Both the position numbers and the translations under genes were made by a program. Shown one piece after another: positions 17,207 to 23,938 of a stretch of DNA of 64,000 nt. Every line of letters begins with the position of its first letter. Position 1 is the stretch's first letter. The stretch lies in contig JAFIEZ010000006.1 of the NCBI GenBank assembly GCA_020832235.1, positions 124,001 to 188,000 on the forward strand. Direction: 5' to 3'. Below the pieces are notes generated by a model. It was not told where the DNA came from. It saw only the letters and a program-made list of their open reading frames with translations, and searched no databases. Source of the DNA: Bacteroidota bacterium (lineage in GTDB: Bacteria > Bacteroidota > Rhodothermia > Balneolales > HLUCCA01).

Positions 17207-18112
17207 TCAATTCATTTTAATACGCATTTCTTCCACTATATTTTTAATCTCGGGAGAAGATATTATGTATTTTTTTGAGCAGTAATGACAAACCAGTTCC
17301 TGGTCTTCGTCTTTCATATTGTCTAGCTCATCTATACTAAGTAAGGCCATGGCGTCTACAAATCGGTCTTTTGTACATCGGCAGAAAAAGTGTACAGGAA
17401 CACGATTTAACTCTTTGCTGTCGAATGGCATGAGGACAGTTTTCATGAGGTCGTCAATATACTCATCTTGCGAAAAGTGGTGGGATAATGGAATTAGTTG
17501 CTGCAGATTTGCCTCAAGTGTATCAATCTGTTTTTCAGGAGCACCGGGTAATGCCTGGATAAGAATACCGCCAGCGTGCGTTACTTCACCAGTATCATCA
17601 ATACCAACGTCGAGTGTAATTGCTGAAGGAATTTGTTCCGACTGAAACAGATAAAAGGCAACATCCTCCGTAATATTTCCATTGCGCAATTCAACTGTAC
17701 CGGTGATCGCCTGAGCTTCGTTGTACAACATTTTAGAAAAGGTAAGTAATCCAATTCCGAGACCATCGCCAATTTGAGGATTATCCTTAGTAAAGTCTAG
17801 TTCAGCAAGCGGGTTGTGAACGTAACCCCTTGCCTCTCCAACCGCGTTTGCTTCCGCAATAATAGTTCCAACAGGACCATTTCCTTGTAGTTGTAGTCGT
17901 ATTCGCTCTTCTCCTTTCAGTTCGGATGCGAGCAGAAGCGCTGCAGTGAGTGTTCGCCCGAGTAAAACCGTTGCAAGCGGAGATAAATTATGATTTGCTT
18001 TTGCGGCCTTAACTACATCGGTCGTTTTAACAACCGACACGCGGAAGTGTCCGTCTGTGGTGATGCCTTTTACGAGGCGATCTTTAAATAAATAGCGTTT
18101 TTTTGCGTCCAT
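17207..18112 (-). CDS. hslO: Redox-regulated chaperone Hsp33
   Basis: The 301-residue protein has the Hsp33 N-terminal fold (RLVKGITTDGHFRVSVVKTTD, GNGPVGTIIAEA, GYVHNP) and the C-terminal zinc redox switch: CxC at Cys244/Cys246 and CxxC at Cys275/Cys278. On oxidation the cysteines release zinc and the protein becomes a holding chaperone. A perfect TAnnTTTG element (TATATTTG, minus strand 18124-18117) is followed by only four bases and then the ATG, so the message is probably leaderless. Confidence 0.95.
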   Translation of the reverse strand: MDAKKRYLFKDRLVKGITTDGHFRVSVVKTTDVVKAAKANHNLSPLATVLLGRTLTAALLLASELKGEERIRLQLQGNGPVGTIIAEANAVGEARGYVHNPLAELDFTKDNPQIGDGLGIGLLTFSKMLYNEAQAITGTVELRNGNITEDVAFYLFQSEQIPSAITLDVGIDDTGEVTHAGGILIQALPGAPEKQIDTLEANLQQLIPLSHHFSQDEYIDDLMKTVLMPFDSKELNRVPVHFFCRCTKDRFVDAMALLSIDELDNMKDEDQELVCHYCSKKYIISSPEIKNIVEEMRIKMN

Positions 18113-18116
18113 GCCT

Positions 18117-18124
18117 CAAATATA
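18117..18124 (-). promoter_or_regulatory. Perfect -7 element TATATTTG four bases before the hslO ATG
   Basis: The octamer matches the Bacteroidota TAnnTTTG consensus exactly and is followed by AGGC and the start codon. The same four-base spacing is seen at panC and at the alpha/beta hydrolase gene. A -33 TTG is not evident. Confidence 0.6.
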
Positions 18125-18190
18125 CGAAGGTTTTATAGGAGATACGCTTTGCTAACATGCTTGTGTGAATGGTAATTCCCAGCTTATACA

Positions 18191-18228
18191 AATAAAAAAA
18201 GGCGAGCTGTTTCACCAGGTCGCCTTTT
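18191..18228 (-). terminator. Intrinsic terminator (minus strand) in the hslO upstream region
   Basis: Arms 18197-18205 and 18220-18228 form a 9-bp stem; on the minus strand it is followed by seven T. It can end both read-through from the methyltransferase operon and the candidate small RNA. Confidence 0.85.
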
Positions 18229-18257
18229 GTGTTAGGGATGTTAGGGTAATTACTAGA
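18194..18257 (-). ncRNA. Candidate small RNA with duplicated CCCTAACA and its own terminator
   Basis: Read on the minus strand: a TATATTTA element (18271-18264), a start point expected near 18257, an unstructured segment containing two direct copies of CCCTAACA (18246-18239 and 18236-18229), then an intrinsic terminator with the stem AAAAGGCGA/TCGCCTTTT and seven T. The predicted transcript is about 60-65 bases. A protein reading frame is not present. The layout (short unpaired C-rich region then terminator hairpin) is that of small base-pairing RNAs. This is inference from layout only. Confidence 0.4.
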
Positions 18258-18282
18258 ACAGTTTAAATATACACAAATTTTG

Positions 18283-18300
18283 ATGGAAAAGCGCTTCCAT
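18283..18300. promoter_or_regulatory. Operator-like inverted repeat ATGGAA-AAGCGC-TTCCAT
   Basis: Perfect 6-bp arms at 18283-18288 and 18295-18300 around AAGCGC. It lies about 12 bases upstream of the -7-like element of the candidate small RNA, covering the -33 area. Arms and core resemble sites at 11682-11697 and 22685-22698 and the general look of LacI-family operators. Confidence 0.45.
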
Positions 18301-18542: not shown

Positions 18543-19682
18543 TCAAGAACCATGAATGCTATACTCAAGATAGTCGCAGGGAATAGTGCCATTCAAAAGC
18601 TCCATTGATCGGTCGGGCTTCAGTCCGAACACATTTTTGAACTCTTTGTCTCCGGTAAATACAACCAGCTTATAACCGGAGGCATACTTTTTCAAATGGG
18701 TGAGTATTTTCGGATAGAGCGACCGCAATGTAGACATGTCTCCGATACGCTCACCATAAGGCGGGTTCATAATAATGACCCCTTTTCTCTCGGGCGGAAC
18801 ATAGATCTGATCTACTTTCCCTACACGCACCTTCACATTCTGCGACAATCGTGCACGCTTGAGGTTTTTAATCGTCGAATCAATGGCTCTGTCGTTAATA
18901 TCACTCCCGAATATCCAATCCACATCTTTGCGAGTGGCATCGCGAGCATCTTTTTGAATCTGTAACCACAAAATACTTCGAAACCCTGGCCATCGTTTAA
19001 TGCCAAATCCATCATGCAACAGCCCCGGGGCTTTGTTTTTGGCCATAAGAGCGCCTTCGATCAGGAATGTTCCTGTTCCGCACATCGGGTCGATGAGTGT
19101 TGTTGAGGGGTCCCATCCCGACATTTTCAGCAATCCCGCCGCGAGCACTTCGTTCAACGGAGCCGGGCCTGTTGCAACCCTATAGCCGCGCTGATTCATC
19201 GACTTCCCGGATGCATCCAACGAAACCGTAACGGTACCGTCTTGACCCACATGTAAATTAATCAGTACATCGGGATCTTTGGGTGAAACACTGGGCCGGA
19301 GCTCATAGCGTTCGCGAAACTGATCAACAATGGCATCCTTCGACTTTTGCGACAAAAAGATATTGTGATTCATTTCCGGGTGGAAGGTGTCGCAGTCGAT
19401 AGCAAACGTCGTTTTGAGCGTTAGCGGACCATGCCACTCCACAGTCTTTATGAAATCGTACAGCTCCTGCTCGTTGCTTACCTTACCTACGGCGATGGGT
19501 TTGAGAATACGCAACGCAATCCGTGAATACATCAGAATGCGATACAACGTGTGGTCATCGGCCTCAAACGCAACCCCACGCTTGCGAACCTGCGCGTTAA
19601 TGGCACCCAATTCAGTGAGCTCTTGTTGCAGGACGGGCTCAAGGCCTTGCAACGTCTTGGAAAAATAGTCGGATGTATTCAA
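18543..19682 (-). CDS. THUMP-domain class I RNA methyltransferase (RlmL N-module/YpsC type)
   Basis: The 379-residue protein has an N-terminal ferredoxin-like and THUMP region (residues about 5-160) and a Rossmann methyltransferase with DPMCGTGTFLIEGALMA (SAM binding), GSDINDRAID, and the amino-methyltransferase motif NPPYGER. Relatives modify guanine in 23S rRNA (m2G2445 by the RlmL half in E. coli); this protein has only that half, as is common outside gamma-proteobacteria. It starts 3 bases after panD stops and is probably cotranscribed with panC-panD. Confidence 0.87.
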   Translation of the reverse strand: MNTSDYFSKTLQGLEPVLQQELTELGAINAQVRKRGVAFEADDHTLYRILMYSRIALRILKPIAVGKVSNEQELYDFIKTVEWHGPLTLKTTFAIDCDTFHPEMNHNIFLSQKSKDAIVDQFRERYELRPSVSPKDPDVLINLHVGQDGTVTVSLDASGKSMNQRGYRVATGPAPLNEVLAAGLLKMSGWDPSTTLIDPMCGTGTFLIEGALMAKNKAPGLLHDGFGIKRWPGFRSILWLQIQKDARDATRKDVDWIFGSDINDRAIDSTIKNLKRARLSQNVKVRVGKVDQIYVPPERKGVIIMNPPYGERIGDMSTLRSLYPKILTHLKKYASGYKLVVFTGDKEFKNVFGLKPDRSMELLNGTIPCDYLEYSIHGS

Positions 19683-21176: not shown

Positions 21177-22580
21177 TTAGATGGTACGATTAGGATCGAA
21201 ACTTTCCAGTAGCTGAACCACGCGTTGCACAAATGCTCCACCCAGGGCACCATCAATAATTCGATGATCGTAGCTCATGGAGAGATAAAGCATGTGTCGA
21301 ACGGCAATCACATCACCTATTTCGGTTTCCATCACAACGGGGCGCTTCTTAATGGCGCCGGTACCAAATATGGCTACCTGAGGCTGATTGATGATTGGGG
21401 TACCCATCAGATTTCCTACAGAGCCATAGTTCGTGAGGGTGAAGGTTCCACCCACCAGATCATCTGGCGATAACTGCTTGCTACGGGCCTTACGGGCCAG
21501 ATCGTTGGTGGCGCGCGCCAGTCCGTGCAGGTTCATTTCGCCTGCATTCTTAATTACAGGAACGATGAGTCCACCACTGCCCGACTCGCCCAACGATACA
21601 GCAATACCGTAGTTAATATCACGCTTGAGTACAATATTTTCTCCATCCACAGAGCTGTTCATGAGCGGATACTCGCGCAGCGCCTGAATGGTTGCCTCAA
21701 TAATAAACGGGGTGAAGGTGAGTTTAAATCCGTTTTCTTGCTGGAATCGCCCTTTATTTTTCTCACGGAAGTTAACCAGGTTGGTCACATCGGCTTCAGC
21801 GAAAGTTGTTACATGCGCTGAAGTCTGCTTTGATTTCACCATATGGTCGGCAATCAGCTTTCGCATCCGATCCATTTTGATGATTTCAACGTTCTCGCTT
21901 GGCCAGTTGACCTTAATTTCACCGGCAGAGATTCGGTCTCCTGCAGATGGTGAAGACGAAGATGAGGGTTGAGCAGCTGGTTTATCTACCGGCTTGCTAA
22001 GTTTCGGAGCTTCAGACTTGCTTGACTTTTTCTTGTTCAGATAGTCGAGTACATCCTGCTTGTTTACACGTCCTTGTGCGCCGGAGCCTTCAATAGACTC
22101 CAGTTCTTCCATGGAAACACCTTCTTCTTTGGCGATAGAACGCACCAGCGGGGAGTAGAATCGCCCGTCAGAACCTTCGCGTTGCGGCGGAGTGTCGCCT
22201 TCAACGTTAGCCGATGGTTTATCGTCGGATGCATCCTCATTATCTTCAGCGGCTGCAGTGGGTTCTTCTTCCTCAGCAGGTGCTTCGTCTTTAGCGGGAG
22301 CTTCCTCTTTGGCAGATCCGGCATCACCGGCAGCAGAAGCATCGGTCTCTATGATGGCTATAACATTCCCTACTTCAATAGTATCATTTACTTCAGCCAG
22401 AATTTCCACCAGAACTCCGGATGCCGGCGAGGGCACTTCCGAGTCGACCTTATCGGTGGCAATTTCCAGAAGGGTTTCGTCTTGTTCAATAGTATCACCT
22501 ATGGACTTTGACCATTCAATAACGGTTCCTTCCATAATGGATTCACCCATTTTGGGCATCACAACTTCAACACGTGCCAT
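21177..22580 (-). CDS. 2-oxoacid dehydrogenase E2 (dihydrolipoyl acyltransferase)
   Basis: The 467-residue protein has one lipoyl domain (1-78; lipoylated Lys44 in ATDKVDSEVPS), an acidic Ala/Glu linker, an E1/E3-binding domain (141-181, FYSPLVRSIAKEEG), a second Ser/Lys linker and the catalytic acyltransferase domain with the terminal SYDHRIIDGALGG. Which complex it serves is open: the E1 genes are not in the window, and the sequence could fit branched-chain, pyruvate or 2-oxoglutarate complexes. It needs LipA/LipB for its cofactor and LpdA as partner, both present at 8-11.5 kb. Upstream lie a TATATTTA element and an operator-like site. Confidence 0.93.
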   Translation of the reverse strand: MARVEVVMPKMGESIMEGTVIEWSKSIGDTIEQDETLLEIATDKVDSEVPSPASGVLVEILAEVNDTIEVGNVIAIIETDASAAGDAGSAKEEAPAKDEAPAEEEEPTAAAEDNEDASDDKPSANVEGDTPPQREGSDGRFYSPLVRSIAKEEGVSMEELESIEGSGAQGRVNKQDVLDYLNKKKSSKSEAPKLSKPVDKPAAQPSSSSSPSAGDRISAGEIKVNWPSENVEIIKMDRMRKLIADHMVKSKQTSAHVTTFAEADVTNLVNFREKNKGRFQQENGFKLTFTPFIIEATIQALREYPLMNSSVDGENIVLKRDINYGIAVSLGESGSGGLIVPVIKNAGEMNLHGLARATNDLARKARSKQLSPDDLVGGTFTLTNYGSVGNLMGTPIINQPQVAIFGTGAIKKRPVVMETEIGDVIAVRHMLYLSMSYDHRIIDGALGGAFVQRVVQLLESFDPNRTI

Positions 22581-22633: not shown

Positions 22634-22684
22634 AGGCTTCGTAAAGTCAATAGTACTATGATTTGCGTGTACTTTTGATGTTGT

Positions 22685-22698
22685 GGAAACGCTTTTCC
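22685..22698. promoter_or_regulatory. Operator-like inverted repeat GGAA-ACGCTT-TTCC
   Basis: Four-base arms around ACGCTT. Aligned with the minus-strand reading of the site at 18283-18300 it agrees in 14 of 16 bases. It lies between the kinase stop codon and the promoter of the E2 gene. Confidence 0.4.
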
Positions 22699-22705
22699 TT
22701 AGTAA

Positions 22706-23938
22706 TTAGTCGGCTTTTGGAAAGATGACAGTAAAGGTGGTATCATCAGCGTTGCTAAACTTCACTTTGCCATTGAGCTGTTGTGTGAGACCGTAGACTA
22801 TAGTAAAACCAAAGGATGTTGCATCTGCAGGATTGAAATCATCTGGTAATCCAACTCCGTTATCACTAACCGTTAAGACGTAGTTTTCTCTTTTTTCCGT
22901 GAAGCGCACGATGATTTCTCCCCTTTCAACGCCATTAAAGGCATGCTTATAAGCATTTGTGAGCAGTTCATTTAAAATCAGGGCACAGGGTATAGCCTTA
23001 TTAAGATTCAGGTAAATATTGTAGGCCTCATTTGTAATATTAATAGCATGTTGTTTATCGCTGTACATGTCTGCCAAGATGCTTTGAAACGCTTTGAGGT
23101 AGCTATCTATTTCAACAACTTCGTAGCTATCATTTTTATACACCAGTTCATGAATGAGCGACATCGACCGTATGCGCCCTTCCGTTTCGGTAAGAAGGTT
23201 TTTTGCTTCCTGATCTCGTATTAAGTCACTTTGTAATGAGATAAGACTGGAAACAATTGCCAGGTTATTTTTAACCCGATGGTGAATTTCAGCAAGCAAT
23301 ATCTTTTTTTCTTTCAGGCTTGTATTCAGCTGAGCTTTACTATTCTGCAGGTCATTGATTAGCTTTTTGCCAAGAAAGTGGTCGTTAAGTACTTTTCCTA
23401 TAAGTATGGTAGCTAGCGGATAAAAGACGATTACTGTAATGCCGAACTGCCTCAAAAAAGGTTCTCTTGCGTAATCGGGTAGTAGAATAGCAAGCAGAAT
23501 TAGCATCACAATGTGTACAGAGATACCCATTGAGTAGAGCAAGCCGATGGAGTAATTATACGTTGTGGAGCTTTTATGCAGTGTGTAAAAGACATATCCA
23601 ATAAGAAAAGAGGATGAAATAACAACTATTCCAGGAATCATGGCTTCTCCACCTACATATACACGAGCCAAAATAGAGATTGCTACGGTAATGAGTCCTG
23701 CAACGGGACCAAAAAACAATGTGACCACACTAATTACTACTGTTCTGGCATCGAAAATGGCCTCCCCAATTACGGAATACGGAAATATCATTCCGATGGC
23801 GGCTGCGAAGCCAAAAAGGAATCCTTGTAGTATATAACCTGCCCACGTTTCTTTACTGTAGCGCGTATCGATAAATCCGGAAACAACACAAATTGCAACT
23901 AGAATTGCCAGGTTATATAAGAGATCTATAGTCGCCAT
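22706..23938 (-). CDS. Sensor histidine kinase, LytS-type membrane domain plus HisKA_2
   Basis: The 410-residue protein starts with a 5TMR-LYT membrane domain (about residues 5-185), recognised by the FDARTVVISVVTLFFGPVAG and ARVYVGGEAMIPG segments. A short coiled linker leads to a HisKA_2 dimerisation domain with LLAEIHHRVKNNLAIV (phospho-acceptor His219 or His220) and an HATPase domain with ILNELLTNAYKHAF (N box) and VSDNGVGLPDDF (G1). It senses an unknown signal at the membrane and phosphorylates a response regulator that is not adjacent. The gene stands alone. Confidence 0.92.
   Translation of the reverse strand: MATIDLLYNLAILVAICVVSGFIDTRYSKETWAGYILQGFLFGFAAAIGMIFPYSVIGEAIFDARTVVISVVTLFFGPVAGLITVAISILARVYVGGEAMIPGIVVISSSFLIGYVFYTLHKSSTTYNYSIGLLYSMGISVHIVMLILLAILLPDYAREPFLRQFGITVIVFYPLATILIGKVLNDHFLGKKLINDLQNSKAQLNTSLKEKKILLAEIHHRVKNNLAIVSSLISLQSDLIRDQEAKNLLTETEGRIRSMSLIHELVYKNDSYEVVEIDSYLKAFQSILADMYSDKQHAINITNEAYNIYLNLNKAIPCALILNELLTNAYKHAFNGVERGEIIVRFTEKRENYVLTVSDNGVGLPDDFNPADATSFGFTIVYGLTQQLNGKVKFSNADDTTFTVIFPKAD

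Follow-up and report, generated by a model that had tools for sequence, protein, structure and literature searches.

A predicted operator-controlled small RNA, probably derived from the 3′UTR of a deleted amino-acid dehydrogenase gene, in Balneolales

Introduction

It is well known that small RNAs (sRNAs) can arise from mRNA 3′ ends (review PMC9438474). In a 64,000-nucleotide stretch of a Balneolales genome (the window), a compact locus between hslO and an RlmL-like gene is probably an operator-controlled, 3′UTR-derived base-pairing sRNA that has survived the deletion of an ELFV (Glu/Leu/Phe/Val) dehydrogenase gene. The predicted non-coding RNA, of about 64 nt, would be the surviving 3′UTR of this deleted amino-acid dehydrogenase gene, whose operator and promoter would now directly precede the former 3′UTR and its terminator. 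Because of this arrangement, a regulator of amino-acid/acyl-CoA catabolism, probably of the LacI family, would control the RNA alone. The RNA would most likely be trans-acting, the 30 unpaired nucleotides of its conserved arm, which hold two 9-nt repeats, pairing with mRNAs of related metabolism and its terminator hairpin protecting the 3′ end. It would then be a metabolic sRNA that shares its regulation with amino-acid catabolism.

Anatomy of the element

The operator-like site, a Bacteroidota-type –7 box, the 30-nt unpaired stretch and the terminator all lie within positions 18192-18300 of the minus strand (Table 1). The original prediction had described here a compact, regulated non-coding RNA, with a promoter element set between an inverted repeat and the transcript and an intrinsic terminator with seven T; both parts are present, the T run ending at 18194, and the general description is supported by conservation in relatives. 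The 5′ end of the predicted sRNA was placed at a transcription start expected about 6-7 nt past the –7 box, and its 3′ end at the end of the T run. The C-rich repeat had been proposed to be unpaired, and the fold agrees with this, since positions 18190-18262 form a single hairpin with all the sequence 5′ of it unpaired (-16.5 kcal/mol, z = -3.3). Both copies of the repeated octamer exist, the second one at 18237-18230 and not at 18236-18229 as first given, with a period of 9. Likewise, the inverted repeat is present in full, and only its operator core TGGAAGCGCTTTTC proved to be conserved, the outer arm being variable among relatives.

On the minus strand, CCCTAACA occurs in these two tandem copies and nowhere else in the 64 kb. 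Eight 8-mer tandem repeats at a distance of 8-12 are found in the whole window, so that the repeat alone is mildly unusual; judging from the comparisons below, it is conservation, rather than the repeat itself, that raises the element above chance. It had also been claimed that the transcript holds no reading frame. A GTG frame does cross the element in the window's genome (G000); in the relatives, the matching frame lacks a start codon and is interrupted by a stop in G001, and in G004 it is shifted, so that it does not represent a conserved peptide. A small peptide encoded by the element was ruled out for the same reason, and the claim holds in the sense that no frame is conserved. As far as the sequence tells, the element thus has its own promoter, a terminator and no conserved reading frame, as a free-standing sRNA gene does. 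No Rfam family was matched by the element above its gathering score.

Table 1. Positions of the predicted element, its parts and its neighbours in the window
Feature	Position	Strand	Basis or remark
Inverted repeat ATGGAAGCGCTTTTCCAT	18300-18283	-	sequence
Operator-like site TGGAAGCGCTTTTC with LacI/cre-like centre AAGCGCTT, core of the inverted repeat	18286..18299	-	exact copy upstream of the element in every f1 and f5 locus without the dehydrogenase
–7-type promoter box TATATTTA, 14 nt past the operator	18264..18271	-	sequence; Bacteroidota consensus TAnnTTTG
Predicted free-standing sRNA, about 64 nt	18194..18258	-	conserved in G001, G003, G004
Repeat pair CCCTAACAT, CCCTAACAC in tandem (period 9), predicted to be unpaired; candidate region for a seed or for protein binding	18229..18246	-	sequence, fold
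CCCTAACA, copies 1 and 2	18246-18239, 18237-18230	-	sequence
Intrinsic terminator (hairpin and T7)	18194..18228	-	fold, compensatory changes
GC-rich terminator hairpin AAAGGCGACCTGGTGAAACAGCTCGCCTTT	18227-18198	-	sequence
T7 run	18200-18194	-	sequence
hslO (Hsp33 chaperone), downstream neighbour, outside the unit	17207..18112	-	NCBIfam NF001033, above its cut-off
RlmL-like THUMP methyltransferase, upstream neighbour, outside the unit	18543..19682	-	Pfam UPF0020, RlmL_1st, THUMP
Perfect –7 box TATATTTG of hslO itself, 4 nt before the ATG	18117..18124	-	sequence; similar box at the hslO start in G001, G003

With a box of its own so close to its ATG, hslO probably forms a transcription unit by itself and has almost no leader. 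In the hslO start region (18112-18124, minus strand) the box is equally close in G001 and G003, which suggests a conserved leaderless hslO mRNA.

Conservation and selection

The comparison covered 129 genomes of the order Balneolales, many or most of which are MAGs. Besides the window's genome, the element was found in three others, G001 (Bacteroidetes bacterium HLUCCA01), G003 (UBA11400) and G004 (Balneolales bin RX1_metabat.bin.55), all belonging, like G000, to the window's family f1. A pattern scan across the GTDB collection likewise matched these three only, and a model search of the 129 genomes gave no convincing further match to the window element. Weak model-search matches elsewhere in the order were rejected, since those inspected were generic terminator hairpins lacking the 30-mer. 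A further genome of the window's genus, G002, shows neither the locus nor hslO and is uninformative here because its assembly is fragmented into 410 contigs.

The original prediction had named conservation in related genomes as a check, and it was borne out. The 26 unpaired nucleotides AGTAATTACCCTAACATCCCTAACAC are 100% identical across G000, G001 and G003, against 50-54% identity in the upstream flanks (the 100 bases before the operator), 32-37% in the stretch from the terminator to hslO and 37% at hslO third codon positions between G000 and G001. By this comparison, strong selection acts on the transcript segment. Additionally, 3 of the 12 pairs of the f1 stem show compensatory change, and the conserved unpaired segment directly adjoins the terminator, as in the 3′UTR-derived class of sRNAs.

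Probable origin from a dehydrogenase 3′UTR in the window's family

For about 50 genomes of the order, the DNA upstream of hslO was inspected. Many have an ELFV dehydrogenase gene there, which in some follows an RlmL-like gene; several carry TGGAAGCGCTTTTC or a close variant ahead of the dehydrogenase. The succession rlmL-like gene, operator, ELFV dehydrogenase, terminator and hslO is frequent in Balneolales. The enzyme carries the Pfam domains PF02812/PF00208, and its top NCBIfam model is tryptophan dehydrogenase, scoring below the cut-off of that model.

One member of f1, G004, retains the whole arrangement: rlmL, the operator, a TATCTTTC box, the dehydrogenase, the element in the form CATCCCTAACAC, the terminator and hslO, with the element beginning about 10-20 nt past the dehydrogenase stop codon. 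At this locus the dehydrogenase is absent from G000, G001 and G003, close homologues were not found elsewhere in these three genomes, and what is left consists of the operator, the promoter box and the former 3′UTR of the dehydrogenase. The remaining dehydrogenase relatives are only 28-33% identical in G000, G001, G002 and the six genomes of genus g7 of family f5, and are probably other glutamate dehydrogenases; G003 has none. The operator-to-box spacing is 12 nt both before the dehydrogenase of G004 and before the TATATTTG box of G001, and 14 nt in the window, while in G003 the operator stands 136 nt from the element and the promoter box is weaker. A 3′UTR position, with a terminator shared with the coding gene, is thus found in the relatives G004 and, in f5, G029; the window copy is a descendant and not a current member of the 3′UTR-derived class, because its gene is gone.

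A parallel case in family f5 and a contrast in f3

In G029, of family f5, the dehydrogenase 3′UTR holds TCTCATATCTGCACTCATAGCACGAAGG and a terminator a few bases past the stop codon. The coding part of this dehydrogenase is intact; apparent internal stops in it were traced to an untranslated 5′ extension of the query and to the normal stop codon. The 30-mer CTCATATCTGCACTCATAGCACnAAGG that lies just after the dehydrogenase stop in this genome is free-standing, with the same operator ahead of it, in six genomes of g7, a different f5 genus (G008, G011, G014, G017, G020 and G032), and in G038, and was not found in other genomes among the 129 of the order. The six g7 genomes have lost the dehydrogenase and retain rlmL, the operator, the same 30-mer as G029 and the terminator; their 30-mer copies are 99% identical and the flanks about 50%. 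The f5 stem covaries strongly, with 98% of cells paired and both partners altered in 5 of 15 pairs, a level reached by 0-2 of 500 shuffles. The count of two independent gene losses takes f1 and f5 as monophyletic, following the database grouping, and relies on the fact that the gene-bearing and gene-less members of each family have that family's own 3′UTR sequence in common.

The order in G038 is rlmL, operator, a 53-codon frame, the 30-mer, the terminator and then an unrelated gene, with hslO on another contig. The frame (MSIVINNSSGVTERFPLYQIEETGYDYLTICSDSD..., locus L234, G038:C242), lying between operator and element, is a candidate relic of the dehydrogenase N-terminus: 0-9 of 1000 shuffles were as good for the best 5 of 12 homologues, a similarity that is weak and short and, for some of the 12, falls short of significance. 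It is possible that this relic marks an apparent intermediate of gene loss. On the other hand, in two f3 genomes (G006, G027) rlmL abuts hslO, the dehydrogenase, operator and element having all been lost; retention of operator and element is therefore not automatic after gene loss. Two species of one genus of f3 (G048 and G052, loci L085 and L095) carry, past the dehydrogenase stop, a third and longer 3′UTR, GACTACGCCTAACCCGTAAACTTTTCCCTTAAGTAGACCAAAGGCGG, which is possibly another 3′UTR-derived RNA.

Repeats with a period of 9 are found in both arms, the f1 pair listed in Table 1 and, in f5, GCACTCATA and GCACTAAGG, where two GCACT copies lie 9 nt apart. When the unpaired arms of f1 and f5 are compared without gaps, 17 of 30 positions agree, as matched by 17 of 5000 shuffles, and the gapped score is not significant (654/5000), so that homology of the two arms is marginal.

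The operator and its putative regulon

In the window's genome, 13 operator sites were found at no more than one mismatch, versus 2 for the reversed pattern. A LacI-family operator would be AAnCGnTT-centred, would recur before co-functional genes and would be bound by a LacI-family protein, of which the genome encodes five; the site is a candidate for such an operator. Its centre AAGCGCTT is LacI-like. The sites lie before or near genes for a beta-eliminating lyase, an electron-transfer flavoprotein (EtfB), an acyl-CoA dehydrogenase and an acyl-CoA carboxylase subunit, as well as a 2-oxoacid:ferredoxin oxidoreductase and a glutamate synthase, the last named from its sequence only. Such recurrence suggests an undescribed global regulon.

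The Cre/LacI-like TGNAAGCGCTTTTC at window positions 22684-22697 (plus strand) was noted together with 12 other sites of the same genome (loci L033-L045), near genes of amino-acid/acyl-CoA catabolism. This second in-window site, with one mismatch, lies between genes for a dihydrolipoamide acyltransferase-like protein (21177-22580) and a histidine kinase-like protein (22706-23938).

As for geometry, the –7 box lies 12-14 nt past the operator in f1, and in genus g7 of f5, as in some genomes of f4, the 5′ edge of the operator is in direct contact with a TAnnnTATGG-like box. Both arrangements would be compatible with repression.

Search for targets

It had been proposed that the repeat acts as a double seed against G-rich leaders, and a search for targets with the repeat complement had been suggested. 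In the related genomes this gave no overall excess over the control, and the double seed is not supported: whether or not G:U pairs were allowed, complements of the repeat pair did not exceed the reversed-pattern control in f1 and did not do so consistently in f5. As long complementary sites are not enriched in either family, base pairing is supported by no target. Near-complements of the CCCTAACA pair were observed in or near the leaders of gltB in G001 (L151, G001:C3:215144) and argG in G003 (L148, G003:C331:2531), both genes being named from sequence. Although suggestive, these hits to nitrogen-metabolism genes are not common to the two genomes, and the near-complements are overall not above chance.

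Alternative explanations

Other readings of the locus were weighed against a base-pairing sRNA. The conserved arm could be a protein-binding RNA, a sponge with two 9-nt sites, instead of a seed for pairing, which would fit the two tandem 9-nt units of f1, the two GCACT of f5 and the lack of enrichment of complementary sites. This is unlikely, given that the repeat sequence differs between f1 and f5, which would be odd for a conserved protein partner, and we know of no such partner. It is quite unlikely that the locus is a fossil, a promoter and terminator left behind with any transcript inert: the dehydrogenase is indeed gone and the leftover parts are those expected from a coding-sequence deletion, but the unpaired 26-30 nt are 99-100% identical while neighbouring intergenic DNA is unalignable and hslO third positions reach 37% (G000-G001), and pair changes in the stems compensate each other.

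Two further readings would move the function to DNA or to the neighbouring gene. The direct repeats, which recur every 9 bp and follow closely on a promoter-like box, could serve a second regulator as a DNA-level binding site; yet in G004 and G029 the 30-mer lies behind the stop codon of the gene, far from that gene's promoter, and it is always directly joined to a terminator hairpin with a covarying stem, which makes a site of this kind very improbable. In each of the four f1 genomes with the locus, moreover, hslO begins 23-82 nt past the element, as it would if the element were its cis-acting leader or attenuator. There is hardly any chance of this, and the candidate was rejected: hslO has its own –7 box in the window, the f5 element lies up to 815 nt from hslO, and in G038 an unrelated gene follows the operator and element, with hslO not downstream of them at all.

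Relation to known systems and significance

The C-rich RsaI-type sRNAs of Firmicutes are carbon-catabolite-controlled, with a C-rich single-stranded stretch and a cre-type (LacI-family) operator. The element resembles them in design, being a predicted short RNA with such a stretch and a putative operator of this type.

GlnZ, an sRNA derived from the 3′UTR of glnA in Enterobacteriaceae, links nitrogen and carbon metabolism (PMC9731577). It shares with the element a short conserved segment and a terminator in the 3′UTR of a gene for nitrogen metabolism, and the segment varies in position by lineage (PMC9731577). However, GlnZ depends on Hfq and is released by RNase E from a host mRNA that still exists (PMC9731577), whereas here the host gene is lost and operator and promoter abut the element; it also belongs to a different phylum. 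MalH and MicX are, at the same genomic position, an sRNA processed from a 3′UTR in one bacterium and an sRNA with its own promoter in another (PMC9438474), and here too one genomic place holds either a 3′UTR form or a form with a promoter of its own. That case was presented as divergent sRNA evolution between two bacteria and not as host-gene loss (PMC9438474), while in Balneolales it is deletion of the coding sequence that gives rise to the own-promoter form, on two occasions as it appears. In a literature search conducted mostly outside subscription journals, neither a 3′UTR sRNA that was kept together with its operator once the coding sequence had been deleted nor sRNA work in Balneolaeota was found.

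The origin of free-standing sRNA genes is an open question. There is perhaps an even chance that deletion of the coding sequence between promoter and 3′UTR represents a repeatable birth route of independent sRNA genes, and that in two Balneolales families selection kept the sRNA and not the enzyme, each with its own seed and the same operator-controlled design. Across two lineages, the related genomes display the element both within a 3′UTR and standing free, as well as a probable intermediate that keeps a fragment of the dehydrogenase, and the clean deletions that left nothing offer a natural contrast. The case sets the function of a 3′UTR sRNA apart from that of the gene that hosted it, and it suggests that amino-acid catabolism is under riboregulation in Balneolaeota.
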